The notes under the pieces were generated by a model, which searched no databases, was not told the DNA's origin, and worked only from the letters and a program-made list of their open reading frames with translations. A stretch of 64,000 nucleotides of DNA, taken from assembly GCA_017471175.1 (NCBI GenBank), contig JAFUVS010000010.1, positions 22,747-86,746 of the forward strand, given 5' to 3'. Numbering within the stretch: the first letter of the stretch is position 1; each line of letters starts with the position of its first letter. Position numbers and translations under genes: made by a program. Shown here piece by piece: positions 15,969 through 56,413 of this stretch. The stretch comes from Paludibacteraceae bacterium (GTDB lineage: Bacteria > Bacteroidota > Bacteroidia > Bacteroidales > Paludibacteraceae).

Positions 15969-15977
15969 TATTTTTGC
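15969..15977 (+). promoter_or_regulatory. -7 box of the first giant T9SS gene
   Basis: TATTTTTGC fits TAnnTTTGC and lies 24 bp before the ATG at 16001. A TTG inside this box opens the frame earlier, but cannot be the start because it lies within the promoter. Confidence 0.65.
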
Positions 15978-16000
15978 GCGTTAATCAAATCTATGTCATT

Positions 16001-19000: not shown

Positions 19001-20785
19001 ATATGCGACAGCGAATTGCCTTTCACGTGGGAAGGCGAGACGTTCACCGCGAACGATGACTATACTGATCTTGACGAGCAGACGCGTTACCGCGAAGTTA
19101 CAAAGAACGTCCAAACCAAAGCCGGCTGCGACTCGATTGTAACGTTCCGCTTGACCGTTTATAGAACCTTCAACACGCCCGTGGAAAAGATCATTTGCAG
19201 CAGCGAGTTGCCCTACATGTGGGAAGGCGAGACATTCACGGAAGGCGGCAGTAAGACTTTATCACTCAAGACGGTTCACGGCTGCGATTCCATCGTGACG
19301 ATGACCTTGCGGGTAGCCGACCAAGAAACGACCCCGCTTGAGAGACAGATATGCGAGAGCGAGTTGCCCTATACATGGGACGGCGAGGTATTTACCGAAG
19401 CAGGAACAAGAACCAAACATTATACATCCGTTTACGGCTGCGACTCGACCGTAACCTATACGTTGAACGTTATACCCTCCTATCATCTTACGGCACCTGA
19501 CATAACCGTCTGCGAGAACGAGTTACCGTACCGTTGGGGCAGCGTCACCTTTACGGAAGCGGGTACACAAACGCAGACGTTCACTTCGTCGTTGGGTTGC
19601 GACTCGACCGTTACGCTGACGCTGAATGTCAATCCGACTTATAACGAAACGGTAGAAAGAACCGTATGCCAAGACGCACTGCCCTATACGTGGGGCGACG
19701 TTACCTTCACGGCGGCAGGGTCACAAACTAAGAGGTATCAGTCCGTAAACGGCTGCGACTCAACGGTAATGATGGTTCTCAACGTACAAACGCCGACTTC
19801 GGACACGCAGACAGAGAAAGTGTGCGACAACGAGTTGCCCTACCAGTGGAATCCGACGGGCAGTTACACGCAAGCCTTGACGGAATCGGGGACGTATAAC
19901 TACACGCTTAAGAGCAGCCTCGGGTGCGATAGTGTTTACTATACGATGAACTTCACGGTGGATCGCGACTATGTAACGGCGCAACCTGCTATCACCTTGG
20001 AGACGTGCGCCAACGATGAGGCGGTGATGATTACGCTGAACAGCACGGCGGGGATGCCTGCCGCCTACGACATCGTGTTTGACGAAAAGGCTGCCGCACA
20101 AGGATTGGAGAACGTGAGCCACCAGACGATAGCGAGCGATGGTATCATAGCCGTTCCCCTACCCCACAACGAGGACTCGACACGCTACGTGCGACCCGAT
20201 GACTATACGCTTACGCTCACCGTCTATGACCAGTGCGATAGAAAAACCGACTATCCGCTCTTGTTCCGTATCCTCTATCCCTCGTGGCTCATTCAGCAAC
20301 GCTGGCGCGATGTGATGGCTATCTACAATAAGAATTACAACGGAGGGTATGACTTCTCGTCCATCCGTTGGTACAAGAACGGCATAGAGATTCAGGGCAA
20401 GGGAGTGCACAACTCCTACGTACAGATGTCGCCCGTATTGGAGATGGCTACCTATTACGCATTGGTAACACGAACGGACGACGGCAAGGCGTTACGCACC
20501 TGCGACTTCGTACCGAATTTGGCTTCGCCTTACTATATGCCCGACATAGAGAAGATACGGCTCAAGCAGCAAACGGACTCGCGTCATATAACGATTGAAA
20601 CCGAACTGTCGGGCGAGTACCAAGTCTATGACGTAACGGGCAAGCAAGTGATGACCGGCTATTTCGGCGAGATGTACGGCAGTCCGATGATTGTGTTCAG
20701 TCCCGCCACAGCGGACGGAGCGTATATCCTGCGCTTCCAAGCCACGGACGGCACAAGAGACACCAAGAAGTGGTTGATTCGATAG
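16001..20785 (+). CDS. giant secreted repeat protein with T9SS C-terminal sorting domain (1594 aa)
   Basis: A signal peptide occupies residues 1-23 or so (RVLTLLLLSCFSLLAYAQ). Residues about 30-245 form an aromatic-rich module with IQFYWWVGDGNN and DDGNIYIQVGG. A divergent InlB B-repeat-like module lies at about 249-326 (NGDGTYSVTM, NLTAVF). About fifteen degenerate 50-80-residue repeats follow, each with an early Cys (ICESELPYTW type) and a later GCDSxVTxTL, so intra-repeat disulfides are possible. The final 80 residues have T9SS type A features (GEYQVYDVTGKQVMTGYFG, GAYILRF) and end KKWLIR. It is probably exported through the T9SS to the surface. The last 320 residues nearly match the next gene. 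The ligand is unknown. Confidence 0.85.
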   Translation: MTRSSVRVLTLLLLSCFSLLAYAQDCCPVKEKVGKVNQYLYEYDKIEIDLYTDTNEDWLRYVGDQKEPQNWNYNKFIRVRAWSDRAENPHNYIQFYWWVGDGNNSSLTQTYANGIGPKAGTYNFTDPMMGAWGPYINGTPQIYYWTHTTLPSTQATLLGYRVHSYYNQYTGQVWVCPFSSYASNAGDLSNNNTQYVMGQSTTGHITTMNSYQVTVDVGDDGNIYIQVGGQDCDSNPVVTIGRKTNSNVHALSVSTEGNGTVTTKPNCENHIEGDKIILTPTPANSSVCFKEWTGTHAEYVTDNGDGTYSVTMQSEDMNLTAVFGDCVKEVTDIIDTCSAALPFVWRPWNNGGIEITSYAQNGTKDIVYQKGSTTIQDSIVTLLLILHEPQKTPVEVTDTLWQCDYDLGEGNWVNLVVDDYEQGEIELDIPNAIGTTYKTMDPDIHGCDSITVHEVIIIPEKVQRLFEFCQSDLNLGDNNYINLEIEPRLVLEGSFWGNFAGDSIIRDTTESTYCLGFDSITIDTIRIYPAYRETWNPGICADKMEEALAEGIPFYDLGPITDMSQNGMEYYTEGSIHGCDSVIVLDLTPLPNDTIYEPMSVCSYPITWRGKTYNSKEDTEKDPVIAPGKEKGDCRQYFFLVPEEAPAIETSIDSTICASALPFYWEEADLTFEEAGSKEHTFHTMFGGCDSIVTLNLNVLPSPEIVETRTICPEQLPYTWGEVVFTEAGTQTKTFERENACDSIVTYTIVVVPDLIQDGDTVCESQLSTPYTWEDETIAADDARFVVNETTGVKTLTIGPKVLPSSLVCDSTVQFTLTVIPEHINDSYTICESELPFTWKAGEEEIVINTASDAVNRSVTLPSVLGCDSTVHLNLTILPTARRGLGTVYIKTGNSFTVFEGTAYEQSFDTNGEYEVVGKGLSAVGCDSVVTFTLEVRDTEIENIYDAICEGEPYVWNGIECTQTDVYEYKTTTIYTGLDSIAYLHLTVNPKYDQLTDGKAICDSELPFTWEGETFTANDDYTDLDEQTRYREVTKNVQTKAGCDSIVTFRLTVYRTFNTPVEKIICSSELPYMWEGETFTEGGSKTLSLKTVHGCDSIVTMTLRVADQETTPLERQICESELPYTWDGEVFTEAGTRTKHYTSVYGCDSTVTYTLNVIPSYHLTAPDITVCENELPYRWGSVTFTEAGTQTQTFTSSLGCDSTVTLTLNVNPTYNETVERTVCQDALPYTWGDVTFTAAGSQTKRYQSVNGCDSTVMMVLNVQTPTSDTQTEKVCDNELPYQWNPTGSYTQALTESGTYNYTLKSSLGCDSVYYTMNFTVDRDYVTAQPAITLETCANDEAVMITLNSTAGMPAAYDIVFDEKAAAQGLENVSHQTIASDGIIAVPLPHNEDSTRYVRPDDYTLTLTVYDQCDRKTDYPLLFRILYPSWLIQQRWRDVMAIYNKNYNGGYDFSSIRWYKNGIEIQGKGVHNSYVQMSPVLEMATYYALVTRTDDGKALRTCDFVPNLASPYYMPDIEKIRLKQQTDSRHITIETELSGEYQVYDVTGKQVMTGYFGEMYGSPMIVFSPATADGAYILRFQATDGTRDTKKWLIR
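19823..20785 (+). repeat. 963-bp near-identical 3' segment, copy 1
   Basis: From TGCGACAA at 19823 to the stop codon this segment aligns without gaps to 24875-25837. Most codons are identical. Differences cluster in a short stretch near 20025-20070 and at scattered third positions. The preceding parts of the two genes are far more diverged. Confidence 0.85.
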
Positions 20786-20865: not shown

Positions 20866-20920
20866 GGCGTTATTGCTAAAATCTGTTTTCGACAGACTGC
20901 AAAAGCGTAATTGCGAGCCT

Positions 20921-23900
20921 ATGAAAAAAATCTCCTTCGCTCGGCTTTGTCCGATAGTATTTCTTCTTTTTCTTTCCTGCTTTGTAACGAATCTTTCTGC
21001 CCAAACGCCCTCGTGGGGTGCTTTTTGGGAGGGGAATAACGGCGACCATATCGTGATGGATAAGTATGTCGCCACGGATGAAGTGGATCCGTGGTATTAC
21101 ACGGCGGCGCGGACTTTTCTGCGTATCCGCGCTTGGAACACGAATCGGACGACGAACAACTATATTCAGCTCTTCTTTTGGATAGAGGATTGGGATCAAT
21201 TTACTACCGAATACACAGACGGTATCGGTCCGAAAGAGGGTAACTGGCAGATGAATAAGCCATACGTATTCTACGATGGTTACGGCAATCCGTACTGGCG
21301 GTTGGGTTTTGAAAAGGAGGGGAATATATACGACCAGCTGAACAAATGCGTCATCGGCTACGACCCGAATTTGGATTTTGTCTGTGCCTATTCGTCGTAT
21401 GGCGCAAGCGCGAGGAATACAACGGACACGTATGAAGGGGATTGGGATAAAAGCGATATTACTTCCTTTACGGACTACAGCGTCAAAGTAGCGGTAGGCG
21501 AGGGCGGCAATATCTACATAGAGATTGGTTCGCCATCGCAGTTGGTGGCAACAATCGGCAAGCCATACGTTGACAATTCGGTGTTTATCAATCTGAATAG
21601 TGATGCTGATTTTGAAGACAATACGAGTGCCGGAAACAATCCGTATATGCGTTTGACAGGCACGGGGCAGGGCAGCAACGGAAAGGATTATGACATCCAA
21701 TTACGGCTGAATTGGAATCATACTACCGGCACATTCAGCCAATCGGATATAGACTTCTCGCAATCCTATTTCCGCCACAACGGCGAAGATATAGTGTGTA
21801 CGGCAATAAGCGGTACGATAACGGAAACATCTCCGGGCAGTTATCAGATGATAGCCACCTTGACAGGCGAGGACGGAACGGTGTATTCGGTGATTTCCAA
21901 TTACTCCCATTGCCCGAAGCCGGAAGAATTCAAGGGCGGTTCGATGGCTACGTTCAGCATATTTAACGATGATGTGATTCAGATCGGGACAGCACGATTC
22001 AGCACGAATCCCGACTTGGACAATTGGTATTACGATGGCGTTAATTATGACTCGAAGAATCTGAACAAATTCTGGGTTATCAAGGCGCAATCCAATACAC
22101 AGGAATACAATTATATACAACTCTATTTCTGGGTGGACACGGACAACGAACTTTACACCTACAAGGACGGTAATAAGTGCGTCAAACCCGGTACGTACCA
22201 TTTTCAAGCCCCGCAAATGCAGTCTATTTATACCTACGGTTCTACAACCTATTATGCTTGGTACGTAAACGAGCAATACTACAATAAGTGTCTGTTGGGT
22301 CTGACGCGCGATTCGTACTGGGGTGTATGTCCCTACTCTTCGTATTTGGCAAGAGGTTGGTCGCAATACTTTGATCCGAATTACAACACGGTAACGAATA
22401 TGAATATGGCGACCGTGGTGGTCAAGGAAGGCAAGGGCGGACATATCTACATAGAGATATGGGTTACGCCTAATGGCGGTTCTACACCTGTTTTGGCGGT
22501 AACCATCAACGAGCCGAAGCACGCGGGCGTGGAAACGTACCAACTCAATGTCTATACAAACGGCAACGGAAGAGTCGAGTTCCCGACCAACGAATGTAAT
22601 TACATAGAAGGCGAGGAGATAGTGATAACGCCTACTTGCGAGGAGGGATATGAGTTTGTGGGCTGGAGCGGCGACTGCGTGGATCAGATTCGCGATAATG
22701 GCGATGGCAGTTATACCTTTACGATGGGTAATCAGGACTGCTCGCTGACCGCCAACTGCAAAGAGGAAGTGCAGACCTACCAACTGAATATACAGATAGA
22801 AGGACAAGGGGCAGTAACCAAGAATCCGAATCAGAGCGAATACGAGGCAGGGACGGAGATTATCCTCACGCCGAATCCTAATAGCGACTGGTTCTTCGAC
22901 TCATGGAAAGGCGGCTGCACGGGGCAACTACAAGATAACAGGGATGGCACCTACACATTTACGATGCCCGAACAGAACTGCACACTGACCGCCGTATTCA
23001 CGAATACTATCATCGAAACATTGGAGGTATGCGACAAGGATCTGCCTACTACGTGGCGCGGACAAGAAATCACATCGGAAGAGCAAGACGGACTGAAAGT
23101 AACGGTCTATAAGGAAGGTAGTGAAACAGAAATAGAGGGTATTTACCAATTAGATCTACGTATATACAAGACCTTTGAAGACCTCGGCATAGAAGACCAT
23201 TGCTCGGACGAATTCTCGGACGAGGGTGTAGCCGGTTTAGTGGTGTTAGACAAATATGAGACCTACTTGGTCGGCTTCACGGGCGATACTGTTTTCTATG
23301 ATACGGTTCCGAATGCGTTGGGCTGCGACTCAATAACCAAACTAACGCTGCGTATCAATATCGCACCGCTTGAATACTGGAATCCCGGTATCTGCGCCGA
23401 CCGAATGGAGGAGGCTTTGGCGAACGGCGAAATCAGTTTCTTCGGCTTGCCCATAACCGATATGTCGCAGAACGGCGAGATGCACTTTGAAACCACCGAA
23501 GAGGGCTGCGACTGGACGTATATCCTTGACTTGACCCCGACACCCAACGACACGGTAGAAGAAATCGTGGAAATCCATTCGTTCCCATATACTTACAAAG
23601 GACAGACTTTCAACTCCAAAGAGGATACACTCTACATCAAGACCCCGCAGAAAGACGGATGCCCTCTATACACCAAACTCATTCCCGACTACAAAGATAC
23701 ACTCAAGACGGAAGTGTATGAACTGGCTTGTATGGAGTACACGTGGGACGAGAACGGCAAGACCTATACCGAATCGGGGAATGACACGATTTTCCTGCGC
23801 TCGACAGACGACAAATCGGATAGTATCGTGGTGCTGCACTTGACCATCGATTATCCGAAGACTGGCATTGATACGACAGCCACTGCTTGTCAGCAGTTCA

Positions 23901-25837
23901 CTTGGTACGGAATCACCTACACCGAATCGGGTGACTATACCCAACCCTTGAAGAGTGTATCAGGGTGCGATTCTATTGTACCGCTCCATTTGACCATCTA
24001 TCATCCGCAAGTGGTATCCGAAGAGACTCAAACTGCTTGCGAAGCGTACGAATGGCACGGGCAGACCTACACGCAATCGGGCGATTATGAATATGAATTA
24101 CCTGAAAACGAACACGGCTGCGTGGACAAGGAGGTGCTGCACCTGACCATTGCTCATACGCCCGCTCCCGTTGATTTGGGCGAAATAATAATAGGTATCG
24201 GCAATGTATTTACCGTCTTTGAAGGTACGGAATACGAGCAGCACTTTGATACGGATGGCGATCATACTGCTACGGGACGAACGTATATGGGTTGCGACTC
24301 GGTGGTGACGTTTAACTTGACCGTTCTAACCCAACTTGAAGATAATGTCTATAAAACCATCTGCCGCTATGATTCGGACGAATATCCGTTCGTATGGAAC
24401 GGAAAAGAATACACCGAATCGGGTGTCTACGACTACAAAACAGTCAGCATAAGTTTCGTTGGTGTTGACTCCATCGCACACCTCCATCTGACGGTCAACG
24501 AGCCTACTTCGTCAGAAACAACAGTTGCTCAATGCGCATCTTACACTTGGTTCGGACAGACTTACTATGAATCGGACGACTACGAACATCATCTGACGAA
24601 CGCTGCCGGCTGCGACAGTACTATTACGCTCCATCTGACTATCTATCCTGCGTATGACAATGTGGAGGACGGGGATACGATTTGTCCGTCTGAATTGCCT
24701 TATACGGTGAACGGCATGACGTTTACGGAAAGCAGTGCTTATACGGCAATTGACAGTCATTACAAGCAGGCAACGCAAACCATACGACTGCAGACCGTGA
24801 ACGGTTGCGACTCCGTGGTTACTTTTACGCTGACCGTACAAACGGCGACTTCCGAAACATTAGAACAGACGACGTGCGACAATGAGTTGCCGTATCAGTG
24901 GAATCCAACGGGCAGTTACACGCAAGCCTTGACGGAATCGGGAACGTATAACTACACGCTCAAGAGCAGCCTCGGGTGCGATAGTGTTTACTATACGATG
25001 AACTTCACGGTGGACCGCGACTATGTAACGGCACAACCGGCTATCACCCTTGAGACCTGCGCCAACGATGAAGCGGTACAGATTATACTCAATACCACTT
25101 CAGGTACGCCTGCCGCATACGACATCGTGTTTGACGAAAAGGCTGCCGCACAAGGATTGGAGAACGTAAGCCATCAGGCAATAGCGAGCGATGGTATCAT
25201 AGCCGTTCCCCTACCCCACAACGAGGACTCGACACGCTACGTACGTCCCGATGACTATACGCTCACGCTCACCGTCTATGACCAGTGCGAGAGAAAAACC
25301 GACTATCCGCTATTGTTTCGCATCCTCTATCCCTCGTGGCTCATTCAGCAACGATGGCGCGATGTGATGGCTATCTACAACAAGAATTACAACGGAGGGT
25401 ATGACTTCTCGTCCATCCGTTGGTACAAGAACGGCATAGAGATTCAGGGCAAGGGAGCGCACAACTCGTATGTACAGATGTCGCCCATATTGGAGATGGC
25501 TACCTATTACGCATTGGTAACAAGAACAGACGACGGCAAGACGCTGCGCACCTGCGACTTCGTGCCGAATTTGGCTTCGCCTTACTATATGCCCGACATA
25601 GAGAAGATACGGCTCAAGCAGCAAACGGACGCGCGTCATATAACGATTGAAACCGAATTGTCGGGCGAGTACAGCGTCTATGACGTAACGGGCAAGCAAG
25701 TGATGACGGGCTACTTTGGCGAACTGTACGGCAGTCCGATGATTGTGTTCAGTCCTGCCACAGCGGATGGAGCGTATATCCTGCGCTTCCAAGCCTCGGA
25801 CGGCACAAGAGACACCAAGAAGTGGTTAATTCGATAA
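20921..25837 (+). CDS. giant secreted repeat protein with T9SS C-terminal sorting domain (1638 aa)
   Basis: The start is taken as the ATG at 20921, which gives MKKISFARLCPIVFLLFLSC with a cleavable signal ending near LSAQ; a TTG at 20873 is close to the promoter and less likely. Two copies of the aromatic N-terminal module seen in its neighbour follow (about 30-220 and 360-535; each has NYIQLFFW or NYIQLYFW and a later NIYIEI or HIYIEI). Two InlB B-repeat-like modules occupy about 540-690 (GDGSYTFTMGNQDCSLTANC). About ten Cys-containing GCDS repeats come next. The last 320 residues, with the T9SS sorting domain ending KKWLIR, nearly equal those of the upstream paralogue. Surface localisation is inferred. 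Confidence 0.85.
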   Translation: MKKISFARLCPIVFLLFLSCFVTNLSAQTPSWGAFWEGNNGDHIVMDKYVATDEVDPWYYTAARTFLRIRAWNTNRTTNNYIQLFFWIEDWDQFTTEYTDGIGPKEGNWQMNKPYVFYDGYGNPYWRLGFEKEGNIYDQLNKCVIGYDPNLDFVCAYSSYGASARNTTDTYEGDWDKSDITSFTDYSVKVAVGEGGNIYIEIGSPSQLVATIGKPYVDNSVFINLNSDADFEDNTSAGNNPYMRLTGTGQGSNGKDYDIQLRLNWNHTTGTFSQSDIDFSQSYFRHNGEDIVCTAISGTITETSPGSYQMIATLTGEDGTVYSVISNYSHCPKPEEFKGGSMATFSIFNDDVIQIGTARFSTNPDLDNWYYDGVNYDSKNLNKFWVIKAQSNTQEYNYIQLYFWVDTDNELYTYKDGNKCVKPGTYHFQAPQMQSIYTYGSTTYYAWYVNEQYYNKCLLGLTRDSYWGVCPYSSYLARGWSQYFDPNYNTVTNMNMATVVVKEGKGGHIYIEIWVTPNGGSTPVLAVTINEPKHAGVETYQLNVYTNGNGRVEFPTNECNYIEGEEIVITPTCEEGYEFVGWSGDCVDQIRDNGDGSYTFTMGNQDCSLTANCKEEVQTYQLNIQIEGQGAVTKNPNQSEYEAGTEIILTPNPNSDWFFDSWKGGCTGQLQDNRDGTYTFTMPEQNCTLTAVFTNTIIETLEVCDKDLPTTWRGQEITSEEQDGLKVTVYKEGSETEIEGIYQLDLRIYKTFEDLGIEDHCSDEFSDEGVAGLVVLDKYETYLVGFTGDTVFYDTVPNALGCDSITKLTLRINIAPLEYWNPGICADRMEEALANGEISFFGLPITDMSQNGEMHFETTEEGCDWTYILDLTPTPNDTVEEIVEIHSFPYTYKGQTFNSKEDTLYIKTPQKDGCPLYTKLIPDYKDTLKTEVYELACMEYTWDENGKTYTESGNDTIFLRSTDDKSDSIVVLHLTIDYPKTGIDTTATACQQFTWYGITYTESGDYTQPLKSVSGCDSIVPLHLTIYHPQVVSEETQTACEAYEWHGQTYTQSGDYEYELPENEHGCVDKEVLHLTIAHTPAPVDLGEIIIGIGNVFTVFEGTEYEQHFDTDGDHTATGRTYMGCDSVVTFNLTVLTQLEDNVYKTICRYDSDEYPFVWNGKEYTESGVYDYKTVSISFVGVDSIAHLHLTVNEPTSSETTVAQCASYTWFGQTYYESDDYEHHLTNAAGCDSTITLHLTIYPAYDNVEDGDTICPSELPYTVNGMTFTESSAYTAIDSHYKQATQTIRLQTVNGCDSVVTFTLTVQTATSETLEQTTCDNELPYQWNPTGSYTQALTESGTYNYTLKSSLGCDSVYYTMNFTVDRDYVTAQPAITLETCANDEAVQIILNTTSGTPAAYDIVFDEKAAAQGLENVSHQAIASDGIIAVPLPHNEDSTRYVRPDDYTLTLTVYDQCERKTDYPLLFRILYPSWLIQQRWRDVMAIYNKNYNGGYDFSSIRWYKNGIEIQGKGAHNSYVQMSPILEMATYYALVTRTDDGKTLRTCDFVPNLASPYYMPDIEKIRLKQQTDARHITIETELSGEYSVYDVTGKQVMTGYFGELYGSPMIVFSPATADGAYILRFQASDGTRDTKKWLIR
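24875..25837 (+). repeat. 963-bp near-identical 3' segment, copy 2
   Basis: Ungapped partner of 19823-20785. It covers the last GCDS repeat, a conserved 230-residue linker domain and the sorting domain. Confidence 0.85.
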
Positions 25838-45767: not shown

Positions 45768-45789
45768 GATGCTTTTCACGAAAGCGGCG

Positions 45790-45798
45790 ACAAAAGTA
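45790..45798 (-). promoter_or_regulatory. -7 box of tRNA-Lys
   Basis: TACTTTTGT on the minus strand, 23 bp upstream of the mature tRNA 5' end. Confidence 0.55.
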
Positions 45799-45849
45799 CT
45801 GCGATTTTTTAATGTGACAAAACTTTTTTTCATTTTTTTGAAAAGAATT

Positions 45850-47310
45850 ATGACGAAAGAGATAAAAATGTCTGTACCCGAGAGGCGAAAGACCGTAAAT
45901 GTACGCGTAGGAGAGGTGATGATCGGGAGCGATTATCCTATTCGTATTCAGACGATGGCGAATGTATCGAGCAATGATATAGAGGCTGCTGTGGGGCAAG
46001 CCATGCGCTGTGCAGTTGAGGGTGCCGAATTATTCCGCTTTACGACACAAGGTGAGCGCGAGGTGTCGAATGTAGGACAGATACGCGAGCGGCTACGCTG
46101 TTTAGGCTGCAAGATGCCCTTGGTGGCGGATGTACATTTTCGGTCGGATGTAGCCGACAAAGCCGCAACGGTTGTGGAGAAAGTGCGCATCAATCCGGGC
46201 AACTATATCGACCCTGCAAGAAAATTCGTTCATTTGGACTATACAGAAGATACTTATCGGGCTGAATTAGAGCGGCTACGAAATCGCTTTGAGCAACTAC
46301 TGACTATCTGCCGCACGCACCATACGGCTTTGCGTTTGGGCGTTAATCACGGCAGTTTGAGCGACCGCATTATGTCCCGCTACGGCGATACGGCCGAAGG
46401 GATGGTGGAGAGTTGTATGGAGTTCTTGCGGGTTGCCAAAGAGCAAGATTTTAGGGACATAGTGCTTTCGGTGAAATCGAGCAACACGCGCGTGATGGTA
46501 GAAACGGTTCGGAAATTGGTTCGTCAAATGGACAAAGAGGAGATGGCTTTTCCTATTCACTTGGGCGTAACAGAGGCCGGTGAAGGTGAAGACGGGCGTA
46601 TCCGATCAGCCGTAGGTATCGGTGCGCTGTTGGCAGAAGGGATAGGCGATACGGTGCGCGTTAGTTTGAGCGAAGAGCCGGAAAAAGAACTGCCTGTGGC
46701 AAAGGCATTGGTGGATTACTTCTACGCGAAAGACAGTATCCGCTACAAGGGCGATGTACAACTGATTTGCGAAAACAGTCAGTCTTCATCGGAAACGGTA
46801 GTGTACACCTCTAATGAAAGCGATTGGGAGATGTTCGTTCTACACGCCGCTGCGGAATGTGGCAGGCTGTTATGGGAAACTGATTGTCCGAAAGAAAGCG
46901 AGAAGGACTTGAGCAAGTTATTACGACTCAACAACGTCCATTTCTGCGAAGAAAGACTACAGCAATTGGAGAAAGACATCCTGCAAGCAGCGGGCGTAAT
47001 TCGCTACAAGACGGAGTTTGTATCTTGTCCGGGCTGTGGAAGGACGCTGTTTGACCTTCAGCGAACGGTGGGCGAAATCAAACAGGCATTTCATGATGCA
47101 TCCTTCTCGTCGTCCCCACTCAAGATAGCTGTAATGGGCTGCATTGTGAACGGTCCGGGCGAAATGGCGGATGCCGATTACGGATATGTCGGTGCTGGGC
47201 GTGGAAAAGTAAGTTTGTACAGAGGGAAAGAGTGCATAGAGCAAAATATCCCTGCCGAAGATGCCGTCAAACGGCTTCTCAAAATCTGCCAAAATGGCAG
47301 GAATAACTGA
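45850..47310 (+). CDS. ispG: (E)-4-hydroxy-3-methylbut-2-enyl-diphosphate synthase
   Basis: 486 aa from the ATG at 45850 (MTKEIKMSVPERRKTVNV). IspG converts MEcPP to HMBPP in the MEP isoprenoid pathway with a [4Fe-4S] cluster. The TIM barrel begins VMIGSDYPIRIQTMANVSSND. The C-terminal cluster domain has CPGCGRTLFDLQ and MGCIVNGPGEMADADYGYVG with the Cys, Cys, Cys, Glu ligand set. An extra domain sits between barrel and cluster domain, as in the long-form enzymes of Bacteroidota, Chlamydiae and plants, but it seems shorter than usual. The 3' end carries the palindrome used upstream of grpE. Confidence 0.94.
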   Translation: MTKEIKMSVPERRKTVNVRVGEVMIGSDYPIRIQTMANVSSNDIEAAVGQAMRCAVEGAELFRFTTQGEREVSNVGQIRERLRCLGCKMPLVADVHFRSDVADKAATVVEKVRINPGNYIDPARKFVHLDYTEDTYRAELERLRNRFEQLLTICRTHHTALRLGVNHGSLSDRIMSRYGDTAEGMVESCMEFLRVAKEQDFRDIVLSVKSSNTRVMVETVRKLVRQMDKEEMAFPIHLGVTEAGEGEDGRIRSAVGIGALLAEGIGDTVRVSLSEEPEKELPVAKALVDYFYAKDSIRYKGDVQLICENSQSSSETVVYTSNESDWEMFVLHAAAECGRLLWETDCPKESEKDLSKLLRLNNVHFCEERLQQLEKDILQAAGVIRYKTEFVSCPGCGRTLFDLQRTVGEIKQAFHDASFSSSPLKIAVMGCIVNGPGEMADADYGYVGAGRGKVSLYRGKECIEQNIPAEDAVKRLLKICQNGRNN

Positions 47311-47369: not shown

Positions 47370-48017
47370 ATGAGTAAGCATAATAAACACGAGCACGAAG
47401 AAGAGAACGTGCAAACAAATATGCCGGAGAAAGACGTGAAAAGTTGCGGATGCGGATGCAAGGTTGATGAACAGCCATGCGAGTGCGGTTGTCAAAATGA
47501 AGAACAGTGTGAGTGCGGTTGCAAAGAAGGACAACAATGCGAATGCAGCGAGAAGGTGAAGGAGTTGACGGAAAAAGTAGAAGCCTTGGAAGATACTAAA
47601 CTTCGCTTGATGGCAGAGTTTGAGAACTTCCGCCGCAGGACGCAAAAAGAGAAAATTGAATTGATGGAATCGGCGGGCGAGCGAATTTTCGTAGATATGT
47701 TGCCTTTGATGGACGATTTCGAGCGTGCTATTGCTGCGATGAAAAATGCTAAAAATGAGCCAAGTGAAGCTAATCAAAACGATTCATTGGCAGAAGGTGT
47801 AGAGCTGATTTATCAAAAGTTCCTTGCTTTTCTTCAGCAACACGATGTAACAACCATAGAGACAGAGGACAAAGAGTTTTCAACGGATGAGCACGAGGCG
47901 ATAACGACCCTCGATATGGGGAAAGAGAAACAGGGAAAAATCATCGATTGCACGCAAAAAGGCTATAAGTTGGGCGATAAAGTGATACGCTATGCCAAGG
48001 TTGTCGTCGGTGCATAA
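47370..48017 (+). CDS. grpE: GrpE nucleotide exchange factor with Cys-rich N-terminal extension
   Basis: 215 aa. The canonical GrpE part spans about residues 60-215: a long coiled coil (KELTEKVEALEDTKLRLMAEFENFRRRTQKEK) followed by the C-terminal beta domain (EHEAITTLDMGKEKQGKII...GYKLGDKVIRYAKVVVG). It releases ADP from DnaK. Unusually, residues 26-59 hold eleven cysteines in clusters CGCGC, CECGC, CECGC and CEC at roughly 10-residue spacing, preceded by His4, His7 and His9. This resembles a metallothionein-type metal-binding tail and is not part of the normal fold. dnaJ follows; dnaK is not in the window. Confidence 0.93.
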   Translation: MSKHNKHEHEEENVQTNMPEKDVKSCGCGCKVDEQPCECGCQNEEQCECGCKEGQQCECSEKVKELTEKVEALEDTKLRLMAEFENFRRRTQKEKIELMESAGERIFVDMLPLMDDFERAIAAMKNAKNEPSEANQNDSLAEGVELIYQKFLAFLQQHDVTTIETEDKEFSTDEHEAITTLDMGKEKQGKIIDCTQKGYKLGDKVIRYAKVVVGA

Positions 48018-48060: not shown

Positions 48061-49233
48061 ATGGCAGAAAAAAGAGACTACTACGAGGTGTTAGGCGTTG
48101 ATAAGAACGCTTCACCGGATGATATAAAAAAGGCTTACCGCAAGAAAGCCATCCAGTATCACCCTGACAAGAACCCGGGCGATAAAGAGGCGGAAGAGAA
48201 ATTTAAGGAAGCAGCAGAAGCCTACGAAGTATTGAGTGACCCGCAGAAACGTCAGCGGTATGACCAATTCGGTTTTGCCGGAATGGGCGGACAAGGCGGT
48301 TTCTCATCCGGCGGATTCAGTATGCAAGATATTTTCTCTCGTTTCGGCGACCTGTTTGCGGATGCGGGATTTGAGTTTGATATGGGCAACGGCGGTCATT
48401 TCTCATCGTTCTTCGGCGGAAACCGAGGCGGTCGCCGAGTACAACGCGGAAGTGACCTGCGTGTCAAAGTCAAACTGACGTTAGAGGAGATTGCCACGGG
48501 CGTGGATAAGAAGATTAAAGTGCGCAAGTTAGTACCTTGTTCGCATTGCAACGGTTCGGGAAGTGCCGATGGAAAGGACGGCGAGACTTGTTCGACTTGC
48601 AAAGGTTCGGGGCGTGTGGTTCGCACCCAACGCGGCATCTTCGGTATGATGCAAGTACAGGAGGCGTGTCCGACGTGTCACGGTGAGGGCAAAGTGATAC
48701 GCAATAAATGTACATACTGCGGCGGCGAAGGCGTGGTACGGGATGAAGAGATTATCACCATTCATATCCCTGCGGGCGTAACGGGCGGAATGCAGATACC
48801 CGTTCAAGGCAAGGGCAATGCTGCTCCTCATGGCGGTGTGCCGGGTGACCTGCTCGTACTCGTAGAAGAGGAGGAACACAAAGACTTGCAGCGCGAGGGG
48901 AATGACCTTGTTTATAACTTGCTGCTTGATATGCCGACAGCGGTGTTAGGCGGACAAGTGAAGATACCGACTTTGCAAGGCGAAGTAAAAATCACCATCA
49001 CGCCGGGTACGCAGCCCGGAAAAGTATTGCGTATGCGCGGCAAAGGTCTGCCTATAATAGACGAGTATGCCCGCCAATACGGCACCGGCGACCTGCTGAT
49101 AAATGTAGGTGTATATATTCCGGAGAATCTGAATAAGAGCGAGAAAGAGTTGATTGAGAAGTTACAGAAGAGTCCGAATATTGTGCCGGGGAACGCTGAT
49201 AAAAAGAATTTCTTTAAGAACATCTTCGGATAA
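48061..49233 (+). CDS. dnaJ: chaperone DnaJ
   Basis: 390 aa. It is a class A J-protein that stimulates DnaK ATPase. The J-domain is at residues 1-70 with HPD in YHPDKNPG, followed by a Gly/Phe-rich linker ([15 protein letters not shown]). The zinc domain has four CxxCxGxG-type repeats ([32 protein letters not shown]). Two substrate-binding beta domains and the dimerisation end follow. It starts 43 bp after grpE with a clear GAAAGGAG ribosome site. Confidence 0.97.
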
Positions 49234-50187
49234 GTGGCAATTTTTCAACATTATATATACTGTCAGAGCAAAGTGCTATTGAGCATTTTGGTGTTCTTGA
49301 CAGGTGTTTTGACAGTACGTGGTGAGGTTCCTATAGAGGAGCCTAAGTTAGGGGGAAATCCTACGGGGATTGCTCCCTTGTATTTTGGTCCAAACGCGTT
49401 GCCTGTGCCGGATATGTCGGACGGCAGGGCATCGGGTACGCTTCGCTTGGAAGTGGCAGGAGATGGCTACTGGGGCAAGGAGGGCGACAAGACCGCCGAT
49501 GTGTTTGCGCGTTTGCAGATACCGCTCTTCACAGACAGGGTCAATCTGAACGTTTGGATGCCGGTTATGGAATGGTATCAAATGAGCTTGGAGCGACAGA
49601 AAACCTGCCGTCTGCAAGACACGGTGGCTATAGCCGGTCATGGTGCGGGCGATGTGTATATATCGACTGACATTCAGGTGCTTCGTGCTCGCAAATATAG
49701 CCCAGATATAGCCCTTCGCGTAGGGGTCAAGACGGCAAGCGGTGGTCAGTTCGGACTGGCACGTCATTTCGATGATCCCGGGTACTGGTTTGACGCGGCT
49801 ATCGGCAAATCATTCTTTTTAGGGCAGTCTTCTATGCAGGAAGATAAGCCGTGGGAACTGCGCTTGGCTGTGTCGGGCGGATTCCTATGCTGGCAAACAA
49901 ATAGTGCGCGGCAGAACGATGCCGTGATGTATGGCGTGCAACTTTTTGTTAAACGTTGCTTAACCGCCGATGCCGCTCTGTCGCTTAGAACGACCTACGG
50001 CGGCTATATCGGCTGGGAAGATCACGGCGACCGACCGATGACGCTCAAGACCGAACTGACAGGTCATATACGCGGCTTTGAGCCGTTTGTCCGCTACCAA
50101 TGGGGCATACGGGATTATCCGTTTCACCAACTGCGCATAGGGTTAGCCTACCATTTTGACATTCTGCACATACATTCCGAAAAATGA
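49234..50187 (+). CDS. outer-membrane beta-barrel protein of unknown function
   Basis: 317 aa if translation begins at the GTG abutting the dnaJ stop; later GTG or TTG codons would also leave a usable signal peptide (KVLLSILVFLTGVLTVRG). The body alternates amphipathic strands (TLRLEVAGDGYWG, LNVWMPVMEWYQM, SPDIALRVGVKTASGG, HQLRIGLAYHF), typical of a medium-sized barrel. I do not recognise a named family. Its TGA overlaps the next ATG, so it forms a pair with the receptor-like gene. Confidence 0.7.
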   Translation: MAIFQHYIYCQSKVLLSILVFLTGVLTVRGEVPIEEPKLGGNPTGIAPLYFGPNALPVPDMSDGRASGTLRLEVAGDGYWGKEGDKTADVFARLQIPLFTDRVNLNVWMPVMEWYQMSLERQKTCRLQDTVAIAGHGAGDVYISTDIQVLRARKYSPDIALRVGVKTASGGQFGLARHFDDPGYWFDAAIGKSFFLGQSSMQEDKPWELRLAVSGGFLCWQTNSARQNDAVMYGVQLFVKRCLTADAALSLRTTYGGYIGWEDHGDRPMTLKTELTGHIRGFEPFVRYQWGIRDYPFHQLRIGLAYHFDILHIHSEK

Positions 50188-52595
50188 AGAAAGTTTTGCT
50201 TTTCCTGTTTTATTTTTCCGCTTTGTCAGTTATGGCGGATACTATTCCGTGGCGTGCTTCGGGCGATTCGGTGGATGCCACTTTTTTCAGGGATTGGTAT
50301 CATCGTAGTGATTTGATTTACTATTTGGAAGCCTATAATGACCATACGATTGTTCAGACGACTTCCTATGGTCAGTGGTGGTTGCCCGAAAGGCTTACAA
50401 TAGGAATAGAAGGACTGCCTTTTACTGCCAATCGGTACTATATAGACGGTATGCGAACGGACAACCTTTTTGAATCGGGTAGTTCGCTCTATATGCCTGA
50501 TATGCAGCACTATGACCTTCGGATGAACACCACGACCGGGCAAATCTTCTTCTCTTCAGCCGCTTCCAATCCTACAGCCAACTATGTACAGGCGACCTAC
50601 AACTTCGGTCAGTTGGGCAACGGCGAGCCGATGGCGGGCACGGCAGCTATCTTCAATATCACCCATCGCAGTCCGATGGAGAGTGCCGACACCTACAAAC
50701 ACATTTCCGCCCGCCGTCATTTGCGAGGAGCAGGGCAAGTGGAGGCTGCCTATTCGTTCCGTGACAAGCAAGGCAACACATACCCGCAACATATCTATGC
50801 TTCTTACGGTCAGCGACTATTGACCCGCGAAGATGTGTCGGGACTGATTACAGACAACCCTTTCTATCGCGCTGATTACTATAAGGTACAAGCCGATGGC
50901 ACGTTTCCCGTTCATGATGTGCGCTTGGGGTATCGTCTCAATTTTTCAGGACGCGAGGACGGCGGCAGCGAATACCTATACAACTTCGATGAAGTCTATG
51001 ACCACAAGAACTATTCAAGTATGCTCTACTACAAGAGTCGGTATCTGACTACCGGTCTGAACTGGTCCACCGATGTGGTGCATCATGCCAATCGCGCTTT
51101 CAGCAAAAACATCCTTGACCAAGACGGCGAGAGTTTCTTCCCGTTTGTGCCGGACGGAAAGACACATAACTTGAGTTGGGCGGTTAATTACAAGCAGCCT
51201 GTACTGCCGTGGCTCAATGTGCATATAGACGCTTATAATTCGTTGGTACACTTTTCGCCCGAAGCGGAGGCTTTTTCCAATACCATCTATTTTCAGCGGC
51301 CTATTGACTATGCTGCCAACAACGGCTTTGTTCCTGCGGCGGTGAATCTGTACCGCTACCAATGGCAGTCGCAGGCTTTCACCGGCGGGCTGTTGGAGAA
51401 CACCATTGGTTTAGATGCCCACTATGCTTTTGGCGAAAAAGCAGATTTGTCGGCTCACTTGGATCTTACAGTAGACGGGATGTTGATTCGTAACAAACAT
51501 AAGGTCAGTGCCAACTGGCAGGCGGGGGTGGAGTTTGATATACATCCGTGCAAATGGTTTGATATGTCGGTGCGCCTTAGTCACGAGCGGTTGCCCTATA
51601 CGATGGATTATCTTCGTTTTTTCTCGGACGATTACCTCAACGGGACGATAGAGCAGATAGACAATACTGCATCGGTGATGACCACAGGCGGCAAATACCA
51701 CCACTATCAGAAAGGCTTGCAGCAGACCTCGTTTGCACAGTTGGACTTGCCGCTGCATTTCCGTTTCGGCAGACACGAGATTGTGCTGCAACAGAGTTAC
51801 CGCCGCTATTTCAATGTATGGTTCACGCGCTACCGGGACGGTGCGGATGCCAATGGAACTTTTGTTGAGCAAGACGGTATCAACGTTTTTTATCCTTCGT
51901 GGAGCGAAAAACAATACGAGGTGGGTTATACAGACGGCTTCGGTAAGAATTGGCTTATGAACGCACCGTACTATTTCTCGCAACTGACCCGCTACTCGTA
52001 CTATGGCGAAAAAGTACTGTTCAGCCTCTCGTGGCAGTCGATGCAGGCTGGCGGTTACAGCGCGTTGGGAAACGGACCGACCAGCAACACGGTAGGCGTT
52101 TTGAGTGAAACGACCGCCAATCCCAATACGCAGAACGTGGTGCTTAATAAGAAGGGACAGTACCGCGCCATCGGCAGACAGGATTTGGACAAAGGCTATG
52201 TGTGCCGAATCTATTTGGGGTATAATATATGTCAATGGGTGCAGACGGGCATCACGCTCAAATGGACGGACGGCAAGCCCTTCACCGACTGGCAGTACTA
52301 TGAGAAGGACGGACAAGTGGCAGTGCTGCCTCTTGACTCGCGCGGCACGAATCCAACGGACGGACATTTCGGCAAACGCCACTGCGCCAAGTACAATATT
52401 GACTGGCATATACAGGGGCAGTGGATGGCAGGCACAGTGCCTATGAAGTTGAATGTGGAGTGCTACAACCTGTGGGACTTCTGCCACGACTTGGCTGAAA
52501 TGGGTTTTGTACAAGACATCCCCTACGCCAAGCGCGCAACGATGATAATGGATATTCCCGTGGGGTTATTGACTACATTAACAATTGGATTATAA
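50184..52595 (+). CDS. large outer-membrane barrel, TonB-receptor-like
   Basis: 803 aa with a signal peptide (KKVLLFLFYFSALSVMA). The first 150 residues after the signal look like a reduced plug (GIEGLPFTANRYYIDGMRTDNLF, then LYMPDMQHYDLRMNTTTGQIFFSS), and the rest forms about twenty strands ending VGLLTTLTIGL. No carboxypeptidase-like extension or clear TonB box is seen, so active transport is uncertain. It overlaps the preceding barrel gene by ATGA and is followed after 6 bp by the LTA-synthase-like gene, suggesting one envelope-related operon. Confidence 0.7.
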   Translation: MKKVLLFLFYFSALSVMADTIPWRASGDSVDATFFRDWYHRSDLIYYLEAYNDHTIVQTTSYGQWWLPERLTIGIEGLPFTANRYYIDGMRTDNLFESGSSLYMPDMQHYDLRMNTTTGQIFFSSAASNPTANYVQATYNFGQLGNGEPMAGTAAIFNITHRSPMESADTYKHISARRHLRGAGQVEAAYSFRDKQGNTYPQHIYASYGQRLLTREDVSGLITDNPFYRADYYKVQADGTFPVHDVRLGYRLNFSGREDGGSEYLYNFDEVYDHKNYSSMLYYKSRYLTTGLNWSTDVVHHANRAFSKNILDQDGESFFPFVPDGKTHNLSWAVNYKQPVLPWLNVHIDAYNSLVHFSPEAEAFSNTIYFQRPIDYAANNGFVPAAVNLYRYQWQSQAFTGGLLENTIGLDAHYAFGEKADLSAHLDLTVDGMLIRNKHKVSANWQAGVEFDIHPCKWFDMSVRLSHERLPYTMDYLRFFSDDYLNGTIEQIDNTASVMTTGGKYHHYQKGLQQTSFAQLDLPLHFRFGRHEIVLQQSYRRYFNVWFTRYRDGADANGTFVEQDGINVFYPSWSEKQYEVGYTDGFGKNWLMNAPYYFSQLTRYSYYGEKVLFSLSWQSMQAGGYSALGNGPTSNTVGVLSETTANPNTQNVVLNKKGQYRAIGRQDLDKGYVCRIYLGYNICQWVQTGITLKWTDGKPFTDWQYYEKDGQVAVLPLDSRGTNPTDGHFGKRHCAKYNIDWHIQGQWMAGTVPMKLNVECYNLWDFCHDLAEMGFVQDIPYAKRATMIMDIPVGLLTTLTIGL

Positions 52596-52601
52596 CGGAA
52601 T

Positions 52602-54476
52602 ATGTCAGGAGAGAGAATCATACTATTTATACGCTACTATCTGTATTGGCTGCTTTTCTTTGTGGTGCAGAAACCAATTTTTATGTTATGGCAGCACCGT
52701 CTGATGGGCGACATCACGTTGGGCGACTATTTTCGCGTCATAGTTCACGCTTTCCCGTTGGATTTGAGTGTAGCGAGTTATGTGATGCTCGTTATGGGGC
52801 TGATACTGATTGCCGGTTGCTGGATACCGCAGCGTGCCATACGTATTGCAACGGACGCGTTGACTGCTATCGTGCTGGTTGTCGGATTGTTCGTTATGAT
52901 AGGCGATAACGGTTGCTTCCCTTCGTGGGGGTATCATTGGGATAAGACGGTGTTTGTTTTTCTCGCTACACCTAAAGACGCTATGGCAAGTGCGCCGTGG
53001 TGGATGTGGCTGCTGGGGGCATTGGCTTTTGCGTTGCTCTTTGCCGGATGGTGGTGGCTCTACCGGCGGTACGTATTCCCAAAAGACGGCACGAAGGCAA
53101 CGTATGAACATAAATCAATACGCAGTCGTGTGATTGGGACGCTATGCTATTCGGTGCTGACGGGGCTGCTCATCTTGCCCATTCGCGGGAGCGTAACGGT
53201 CAGCACAATGAACACGGGGCGGGTCTATTTCTCCGATAACCAAATGCTTAACATCGCTGCCATCAATCCTGTCTTCAATATCGTGGAGTCGTTAGGCGAG
53301 AATACATTTGATGTGCAGAAATATACGTATATGTCCTCTGAAGAGGCTGAAGAAAGGGTGAACGCATTGCTGCGCTCGCGTGAGACGGATGCAGATTCTC
53401 TTTCATTACATACGCCGTCAAAACGCATTTTGCGCACCCAACGCCCCCATATCGTGCTGTTCATCTTGGAGAGTTTCTCGCTCAATGCGTGGGAGGCGAT
53501 GCCCTGCTTGCAGGCGTTGAGCAAGGAGGGTATATGGTTCAGCCACACCTATGCTGGCAGTTACCGCACGGACCGGGGCGTGGTGGAGGTGATGAGTGCT
53601 TTCCCCGGACAACCTACCAGTTCGCTGATGACCGTACCGTATAAGTCAGAGCGGTTGCCTAATATCGGCAAGACACTTAAGGCTGCGGGCTATGACTTGC
53701 ACTTCTATTACGGTGGCGATGAGGACTTTACCAATATGCGTTCCTACCTCATATCGGGCGGTTTTGACCGGCGCGTAAGCGACCGCGACTTCCCGATGAG
53801 CGACCGCCTTAGCAAATGGGGCGTACCCGACCATATTCTCTTGTCCTTTGCGCAAAGAGAGATAGCCGAACGCTATGAGCAAGATACCCTATCGCACTTG
53901 GATGTCATTCTCACACTCAGCAGCCACGAACCGTTTGAAGTGCCTATGCAGCGGTGGGAACATCCGTACCTCAACTCGATTTGCTATACAGACAGTTGCC
54001 TCGGGTCGTTTGTCGATTCGATGCGTCTATCAAGCGAATGGGATAATACGCTGATTATGTTCGTAGCCGACCACGGTTTTCCGTACCCCAATGGTTTGCC
54101 CATCCATGTGCCGGAGCGTTTTCGTATCTTGTCTCTATGGGCAGGAGGCGCGGTAACTGCTCCGCAAGAAGTAACGACGCTCTGCTCGCAAGCGGATATT
54201 GTGCCGACCTTGCTCAAGCAAATGGACTTACAGACAGAGGATTATGTTTTTGCCAAAAACATATTCGATGCGACACACACGCCGTTTGCTTTCTTTGCCT
54301 TTAACGACGGCTTCGGACTCCTGACCGAACAGGATACGGTAGTCATTGATGCCAAGGCGGATAAGGTATTGGTATCGGGAACATCAGCAGAGGATGCTTT
54401 GGCGGCAAACGAAGAAACCTTTCGTACTGCTAAAGCGCTTATACAACGAATAATGGAAACGATTGACAAACTATGA
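52602..54476 (+). CDS. LTA synthase family phosphotransferase/sulfatase (copy 1)
   Basis: 624 aa. Five membrane helices lie in the first 200 residues. A periplasmic alkaline-phosphatase-fold domain follows with HIVLFILESFSLNAWEA (first metal ligand), the nucleophile Thr in SYRTDRGVVEVMS, and MFVADHGFPYPNG near the C-terminus. In Gram-negative bacteria such proteins move phosphoglycerol or related groups from phospholipids to glycans or glycolipids; true lipoteichoic acid is not expected. It overlaps its paralogue by ATGA. Confidence 0.87.
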   Translation: MSGERIILFIRYYLYWLLFFVVQKPIFMLWQHRLMGDITLGDYFRVIVHAFPLDLSVASYVMLVMGLILIAGCWIPQRAIRIATDALTAIVLVVGLFVMIGDNGCFPSWGYHWDKTVFVFLATPKDAMASAPWWMWLLGALAFALLFAGWWWLYRRYVFPKDGTKATYEHKSIRSRVIGTLCYSVLTGLLILPIRGSVTVSTMNTGRVYFSDNQMLNIAAINPVFNIVESLGENTFDVQKYTYMSSEEAEERVNALLRSRETDADSLSLHTPSKRILRTQRPHIVLFILESFSLNAWEAMPCLQALSKEGIWFSHTYAGSYRTDRGVVEVMSAFPGQPTSSLMTVPYKSERLPNIGKTLKAAGYDLHFYYGGDEDFTNMRSYLISGGFDRRVSDRDFPMSDRLSKWGVPDHILLSFAQREIAERYEQDTLSHLDVILTLSSHEPFEVPMQRWEHPYLNSICYTDSCLGSFVDSMRLSSEWDNTLIMFVADHGFPYPNGLPIHVPERFRILSLWAGGAVTAPQEVTTLCSQADIVPTLLKQMDLQTEDYVFAKNIFDATHTPFAFFAFNDGFGLLTEQDTVVIDAKADKVLVSGTSAEDALAANEETFRTAKALIQRIMETIDKL

Positions 54477-56413
54477 CACCTCGTTATCTTCAGCCTTTAT
54501 GGCATAGTATTGGTTATCTGTTCGGTCTGCATATTTTGGCACTCTGTACAATGACGCTGTGCCGCCTGATCTTGCTATGGAGCAATATGCCGGCGGAAGA
54601 GATTGACTACGCATTGCTTTTTAGGGCATTGCTCATCGGCATTAAGTTTGACAATCTGATAGCCTGTTACGTGCAAGCCCTGCCGGTGGTGGTGCTGACG
54701 CTTATTACACTTCTCACACTGAAAAACCGAAACAAACAACGGATAGTGGCAGGTTGCAAGCGAGATATTGCATGGTGGGAAGGTATTTTGTTTGCTCTTG
54801 TTCTGTTCATTGAGGTTGCCAATGCGCGGTATTTTCATTTTTTCGACAACCATTTGAACTATGAAGTGACAGAATGGTTTGGTTTTGCCGGTGACACAGC
54901 CGGTATGGTGCTGCAAGACACGACCAATCTGTGGTTCTTGCTGATTGCCGTAATCGTGATAACTGCCTATGAACGGGTACTTGTACGCCTAACACGACGC
55001 TCAATAGCTCAACAACCATCGTTATTAGTGAGCAGCCCTATCCCTGTCCGCACATACATACAAAGCGGTATGATCTGCGTGTTGCTCTACGCATTGGTCT
55101 TTATCGGCATACGCGGCAGCCTGCAACGCTATCCGCTTAAAGTCAGTTTCGCCTATTTCTGCGACAAACCTTTCTACAATAAATTAGGTATCAATCCCGT
55201 ATTCAATATCGTAAAGACAGCCGAGAACGGGAAAAACAAGTTGCCCGATTTCTTATCGGCTGTCAGCGTGCAAGAAGCCGAAAAGTATGTGCAAAGTGAG
55301 TTACAGCGTCCGCTGACGGATTCGGTGGTTGCTCCCGTTGTTCTGACATCGCGTCCGAATGTGGTACTCATTTTGATGGAGTCGATGACAAGTGCCAACT
55401 TAGAGCGACAATATAACGGGCAGTATCTCACGCCTTATCTTCGTTCGCTGCGCGACAGTAGCTGGTATTGGAGCAATGCCTTTTCGGCGGGTATCCATAC
55501 CAACAACGGCATTGTGGCTTCACAATATGGCTATGTACCTAATTTTGCGCGCGCGATGATGGATGTGAACGCCAACCACTATACAGGTCTTCCCTACTAC
55601 CTTAAACAATCAGGTTATCATAACCTTGCTTTTGTTACAGGCAATCCGCAGTACGACAATATGAATAGTTTTTGGCGGGAGAACCATATCCCGCTTATCT
55701 ATTCGCTTTACGACTACGAAGAGAAGGCGGCGGTCAATAATTTCGGTGTGCCGGACGACTATATGTTCCGCTTCGGTATTGACAAACTGGGTTCGCAAGC
55801 AGAGCCTTTCTTTGCCACCTTCCTGACGGTGAGTAATCATCCGCCATACATCGTGCCGGAGACTTATCGCTCACGTGGCAAGAACGATGAAGAACGTATC
55901 ATTGCATACGCCGACGATGCCATCAGGCAGTTTATGGCAGTTGCCTGCCAAACCGAATGGGGACAGAACACGTTGTTTATTCTCTGTGCCGACCACGGTG
56001 CGCCGTTTGCTTCGCCATACGAGATGACCCTTCCGCTCAACACGATTCCTGTCTATTTTGTCGGAGCCGGATTGCAGCCACAGAGGATGACGCAACCTGC
56101 CTCGCAGATAGATATATGGACTACTACGCTCGGTTTGTTGGGCATCCCATACGACAATCCCACTTTAGGCATTGACTTACAGCGCAATGAACGGCGATAT
56201 GCATTCTTTGTCAGCAACGAACATCTGGGCGTGAGCGATGGCGAATGGTTCTGGTGCTACGGTTTGAACAGCCATCAGGAGCATCTCTATCGTATAGGAA
56301 GCGATGAGGATGTAAAAGACCACTACCCCGAACAAGCTGACGATATGCGCCGCTTCGGCACCTGTATGCAGCGCGTGAACTTGCAGAAAATGAATAACAA
56401 AACGACACTATGA
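54473..56413 (+). CDS. LTA synthase family phosphotransferase/sulfatase (copy 2)
   Basis: 646 aa. The architecture is the same as copy 1: an N-terminal membrane bundle (about residues 10-210), then VVLILMESMTSANLE, the nucleophile Thr in AGIHTNNGIVASQYG, and FILCADHGAPFA. The two copies are clearly diverged, so they likely act on different acceptors or in sequence. The stop overlaps the GT4 start as ATGA, so a sugar transferase and two headgroup transferases are made together. The acceptor is unknown. Confidence 0.87.
   Translation: MTPRYLQPLWHSIGYLFGLHILALCTMTLCRLILLWSNMPAEEIDYALLFRALLIGIKFDNLIACYVQALPVVVLTLITLLTLKNRNKQRIVAGCKRDIAWWEGILFALVLFIEVANARYFHFFDNHLNYEVTEWFGFAGDTAGMVLQDTTNLWFLLIAVIVITAYERVLVRLTRRSIAQQPSLLVSSPIPVRTYIQSGMICVLLYALVFIGIRGSLQRYPLKVSFAYFCDKPFYNKLGINPVFNIVKTAENGKNKLPDFLSAVSVQEAEKYVQSELQRPLTDSVVAPVVLTSRPNVVLILMESMTSANLERQYNGQYLTPYLRSLRDSSWYWSNAFSAGIHTNNGIVASQYGYVPNFARAMMDVNANHYTGLPYYLKQSGYHNLAFVTGNPQYDNMNSFWRENHIPLIYSLYDYEEKAAVNNFGVPDDYMFRFGIDKLGSQAEPFFATFLTVSNHPPYIVPETYRSRGKNDEERIIAYADDAIRQFMAVACQTEWGQNTLFILCADHGAPFASPYEMTLPLNTIPVYFVGAGLQPQRMTQPASQIDIWTTTLGLLGIPYDNPTLGIDLQRNERRYAFFVSNEHLGVSDGEWFWCYGLNSHQEHLYRIGSDEDVKDHYPEQADDMRRFGTCMQRVNLQKMNNKTTL

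Follow-up and report, generated by a model that had tools for sequence, protein, structure and literature searches.

Sequence comparison indicates that a gut bacterium of the Paludibacteraceae encodes an otherwise normal GrpE whose N-terminal tail carries a ladder of eleven cysteines. The ladder is real and unusual, and was found in one species only among those read. The gene lies within a stretch of 64,000 nucleotides that was analysed as a whole (the window), and the features relevant here are listed below by their positions in it.

45769..47310, plus strand: ispG (gcpE), the next gene upstream of grpE (Pfam GcpE, E 2.4e-115)
47370..48017, plus strand: grpE, 215 aa, encoding the DnaK nucleotide exchange factor; core at residues 58-214 (Pfam)
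47370..47405, plus strand: N-terminal end of the tail, MSKHNKHEHEEE, which includes three His; its MSKHNK is common to five related species
47445..47459, plus strand: cluster 1 of the ladder, CGCGC, residues 26-30, outside the 30-bp array
47467..47546, plus strand: tandem array with clusters 2-4 (CECGC, CECGC and CEC); Tandem Repeats Finder (TRF) period of 30 bp, 2.7 copies, 74% matches
48061..49233, plus strand: dnaJ, the next gene downstream of grpE, with J, central CXXCXGXG and C-terminal domains (Pfam)

On the plus strand, grpE lies between ispG and dnaJ, and the grpE core is ordinary and intact. Membership of PF01025 depends on a profile match over stalk and wing, and the product matched this profile over residues 58-214 (E 1.3e-41, 142.5 bits against a cut-off of 25.8). 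An NCBIfam search returned 27 families at E ≤1, and the 25 of these that were listed were all GrpE models, all under their curated cut-offs; its relatives include GrpEs with solved structures, such as 4ani, 3a6m and 1dkg. The source is a 78% complete metagenome assembly of 1.81 Mb in 21 contigs (G000), in which the grpE product is the only GrpE match, alongside one full-length and one further partial match to Hsp70. The grpE genes of two same-genus genomes, G456 (L032, same as L108) and G497 (L033, same as L119), are identical to those of MAGs labelled Paludibacteraceae that come from goat abomasum and horse faeces, and these matches point to the family of the window, which NCBI assigns to the Bacteroidales. 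Pfam analysis identified no metal-handling family among the ten window ORFs examined. Downstream of dnaJ, two genes without a Pfam match at E 0.01 (49234-52595) are followed by an adjoining pair of sulfatase-family genes with a four-base overlap (52602-56413). The window also features two adjoining giant ORFs with TTG starts (15974-20785 and 20873-25837; 1603 and 1654 aa), which contain divergent InlB B-repeat domains and perhaps encode surface proteins.

The initial annotation described eleven cysteines between residues 26 and 59 with three histidines before them, and translation of 47370-48017 confirmed this arrangement. Cys occupies residues 26, 28, 30, 37, 39, 41, 47, 49, 51, 57 and 59, where the codon for residue 26 starts at 47445 and that for residue 59 ends at 47546, and His residues 4, 7 and 9 lie ahead of the ladder. 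One more Cys is located outside it, in the core (residue 194). The four clusters read CGCGC, CECGC, CECGC and CEC in order, with two exact CECGC motifs in the tail (residues 37-41 and 47-51) and a final cluster in which CEC is followed by Ser. Cys accounts for 11 of the 34 ladder residues (about one third), arranged in seven CxC pairs. None of the other ATG-started window ORFs of at least 60 aa has more than six Cys per 34 residues. The same Cys count over 931 ORFs of at least 100 aa from the fetched loci, covering both strands and including overlapping frames, gave 11 for grpE (present in five loci) and 13 for one other frame, which runs on the reverse strand over the grpE tail repeat of locus L204.

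The ladder is very probably translated from a start upstream of it, a conclusion well supported by comparison with related genes. Six of the 156 distinct same-genus grpE genes, this one included, open with MSKHNK upstream of the ladder position (MSKHNKHHHEEE in the nearest relative, G012; MSKHNKHKHEEE in G543, G432 and G528; MSKHNKEE in G503). This opening is common to relatives and the core is conserved, and therefore the ladder sits between them. The initial annotation had noted that a start downstream of residue 60 would leave the region untranslated and undo its proposal; such a start was rejected, because MSKHNK is kept ahead of the ladder in five relatives. It is also highly improbable that the ladder was produced by an assembly or sequencing artefact. 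It comes from one assembly only, a metagenomic one of 78% completeness, and short tandem repeats are prone to mis-assembly, but the reading frame is intact throughout, the repeat units have diverged rather than being identical copies, and the Cys codon differences between units are synonymous. Moreover, both flanks of the ladder were retained in a pairwise DNA alignment with grpE of G012, and therefore no chimeric contig is needed.

To describe the distribution of the ladder, the genus was searched with the GrpE protein, which matched 162 of 178 genomes. The tail was examined in 154 of these, the own genome among them, and merging of identical genes gave a summary of 156 distinct genes, three of which come from G539; this summary left out loci L034, L063-L095, L126-L128 and L223 onward. 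Each tail was counted from the earliest ATG in its open frame, with the likely start judged by eye. This showed no Cys in 144 tails, one in seven, two in three, five in one and eleven in one, where the counts for L011 (five), L098 (two) and some of the one-Cys tails include residues upstream of the likely start. The claim that this tail differs from the usual Cys-poor GrpE N-termini is supported among the tails read. Of 24 genomes representing other families in the order, 23 yielded a GrpE, with zero to two Cys per tail. Within the class, 147 of 149 genomes (own included) had a match and 69 genes, each from a different genome, were read (L245-L313), three of them from the same order (G141, G201 and G294). 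Here, 63 tails had no Cys, three had one, two had two and one had three, and again the counts for L301 (three), L289 and L312 (two each) include residues upstream of the likely start. No tail from the 153 other same-genus genomes, the 23 order genomes or the 69 class genomes contained more than two Cys after its likely start.

In the gene tree, this grpE pairs with that of G012 (support 0.75), then with that of G503 (0.96), inside a clade of eight genes (0.97) whose other seven tails have zero Cys after the likely start; dN between the core and that of G012 is 0.106. None of the relatives read, G012 included, has the ladder; this is the outcome that the initial annotation had named as a refutation, and it argues against an old, conserved trait. 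Gain of the ladder on the branch of this species would be the simplest history. The three tail His are older than the ladder, because related GrpEs without Cys carry them. In two more distant members of the genus (L032 from G456 and L133 from G447), the tail contains His and also two Cys, which may be due to chance. Separately, five same-genus genomes of 94-98% completeness (G458, G553, G557, G561 and G517) yielded no GrpE by protein or Pfam search; grpE is usually retained in genomes, and these absences perhaps reflect contig gaps. The three distinct grpE genes of G539 occur in one assembly, which is perhaps a mixed MAG.

Broader searches were made with the tail itself. With residues 20-85 as query, 85 of 395 phylum genomes (own included) had a match at E ≤10, with no second match in the own assembly, and the best match from elsewhere (E 0.0091) was to a locus without any group of four close Cys. 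Eight of the 19 other returned loci were inspected, and differently designed Cys tails would escape this search. The CECGC pattern matched 120 of 393 order genomes (own included), but its reversed control also matched many, and none of the 30 pattern loci returned (L066-L095) featured a GrpE. No grpE relatives were found in viral_contigs. GrpE matches were obtained from 51 plasmid records, none covering 80% of the query, and the five listed of these begin at residue 63 or later, while 15 phage records had short GrpE matches (best E 0.03). In open-access literature on GrpE and on metallothionein-like chaperone extensions, no Cys-ladder GrpE was evident from the titles and abstract openings of the records listed.

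The ladder had also been interpreted as a tandem amplification of a CECGC unit. TRF assigned a 30-bp period to 47467-47546, so this interpretation holds for clusters 2-4 but does not extend to cluster 1, which lies outside the array. Two 30-nt copies within the array form a direct repeat with 73% identity. At a TRF score of at least 40, tandem repeats were called for 51 of the 156 genus tails, this one among them, versus none of 156 core stretches from the same genes. When the codons of the tails were shuffled, an average of 5.8 of 156 had repeats (five rounds); the shuffle keeps codon content and discards codon order, and therefore controls for composition only. The content of the repeat units varies widely (e.g. 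NGENGDAAL, KDEVQGT, ANAAAANAT and VEEQ). The GrpE tail in this genus is a hot spot of repeat turnover beside a conserved core, and thus the ladder is one outcome of a general process in the tail. The net charge of the tail, -8, is near the average for the genus (-7.6, sd 4.1), so the tail remains as acidic as is usual. Two other origins were considered and rejected: capture from another gene, as no second in-frame CECGC protein was found in the assembly, and derivation by frameshift from the G012 tail, where no out-of-frame resemblance was apparent by eye. The one other CECGC pattern match (L063) reads as CECGC in a 133-aa frame, which is entirely contained in a 164-aa frame of the same strand. 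Tails of L204, L102, L141, L138 and L115, all from the same genus, are examples of grpE tails built of short tandem repeats of differing content.

These data leave room for a near-neutral by-product of repeat turnover, in which variable hydrophilic filler is tolerated, the amplified unit happened to contain Cys codons and any metal binding by the tail would be incidental. This is a possible explanation, although we would not expect it to be the true one. It accords with the repeats of unrelated content in the 51 tails, with the restriction of the ladder to a single species among those read and with a tail charge typical of the genus. It sits less easily with the near absence of Cys from other genus tails, with the cost expected of an exposed 11-thiol tail and with the two full repeat copies, which differ at 27% of bases, yet keep all Cys codons. 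The Cys codon differences between repeat units are all synonymous (three of three pairwise), compared with four of 13 at other codons (nine are not; one-sided Fisher p 0.0625), but this bias is a hint only, since the pairs are non-independent and it was the Cys that drew attention to this locus. The lack of conservation among the relatives read, with one assembly and one allele, also counts against function.

The explanation that we favour, to which we give an even chance, is that the ladder is translated and forms a thiolate tail specific to this lineage, which would be expected to bind Zn(II)/Cu(I) and to work like the tail of Helicobacter pylori GroES. A unit of ~30 bp encoding CECGC and an E/Q/K spacer would have been duplicated in tandem on the branch of this species, which would have converted a formerly acidic stretch into a ladder of 11 thiols. 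Zn(II) and Cu(I) are bound by thiolates at close spacing, and CxCxC thiols near His in a reducing cytosol would be expected to bind these soft d10 metals, giving each GrpE a small metal-thiolate cluster. In the GrpE dimer, the tails are located at the free end of the stalk, where two such clusters would lie side by side. Metal buffering or storage on the co-chaperone would be the likely effect, as for H. pylori HspA (GroES), whose tail is rich in His and Cys, and metal-bound or oxidised thiols could possibly have a modest effect on tail-aided substrate release from DnaK. High affinity for d10 metals is described for metallothioneins in the abstract of PMC9093145. A more ambitious proposal seems unlikely: that a metallothionein-like module, arisen de novo through tandem repeat expansion on one branch, makes GrpE a Zn- or Cu-loaded metal buffer, with substrate release from DnaK adjusted by the metal or redox state of this buffer. 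The tail matched no Pfam family above cut-off and no solved sequence, and residues 20-65 had no match in NCBIfam. In our judgement, metal binding with some benefit accounts for about one half of the probability and neutrality for about one third; near-neutral repeat expansion is a serious rival.

Alternatively, pairs of tail thiols could form disulfides within or between subunits and thereby alter the GrpE-DnaK cycle, by analogy with Cys87 of human GrpEL2, a proposed redox sensor (PMC12987570). This GrpE-like protein provides a redox-sensitive precedent, and the same source reports that the E. coli GrpE tail aids substrate release and that N-terminal truncation lowered substrate release from DnaK. 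However, GrpEL2 relies on one Cys just upstream of the presumed Hsp70-linker contact region, whereas the thiols considered here belong to a region that is not resolved in bacterial structures and is placed by them at a distance from the substrate domain, and we regard a redox switch as quite improbable.

This GrpE is thus a chaperone whose lineage-specific tail consists of likely metal ligands. Should metal be bound in vivo, GrpE would represent a further independent case, beside H. pylori GroES, in which a housekeeping co-chaperone has gained a metal-binding appendage, and its tail would exemplify a functional thiolate module born when repeats turn over within a disordered region. Even if the ladder is neutral, the GrpE tail hot spot would be a natural test bed for the tolerance of disordered tails to change.

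Compared with known systems, the tail is of the usual length (60 residues, where bacterial GrpE N-terminal tails are typically 40-50 residues according to PMC12987570) and is acidic, hydrophilic and presumed disordered like ordinary bacterial GrpE tails. It differs from them in its 18% Cys, against none in 144 of 156 genus tails. It shares with human GrpEL2 the role of a GrpE-like exchange factor for which a thiol switch has been proposed, but GrpEL2, as portrayed in PMC12987570, employs a single Cys outside the tail, is disulfide-based and has no Cys ladder. Like metallothioneins (e.g. Pfam Metallothio_5), the ladder has CxC spacing and is about one third Cys, although its profile score is below threshold (Metallothio_5, 13.7 bits against a cut-off of 25, E 0.072) and, unlike metallothioneins, it is fused to GrpE and has Glu/Gln-rich spacers. 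The mammalian metallothionein alpha domain also has 11 Cys. The closest parallel is H. pylori HspA, where PMC3856676 reports that the tail binds nickel in vitro and that its deletion is viable, reduces the nickel content and makes cells more sensitive to nickel. For HspA, both nickel binding and a phenotype have been shown, whereas metal binding by the GrpE tail is predicted from its sequence, and the two differ in that the latter is an N-terminal tail on GrpE rather than a C-terminal tail on GroES. In both cases, a co-chaperone that is the sole member of its family in the cell, or for GrpE the only match in the assembly, bears an unusual tail of likely metal ligands. The GrpE tail, like that of HspA, was added to a conserved chaperone in a particular lineage, its ladder occurring in no other GrpE tail read.
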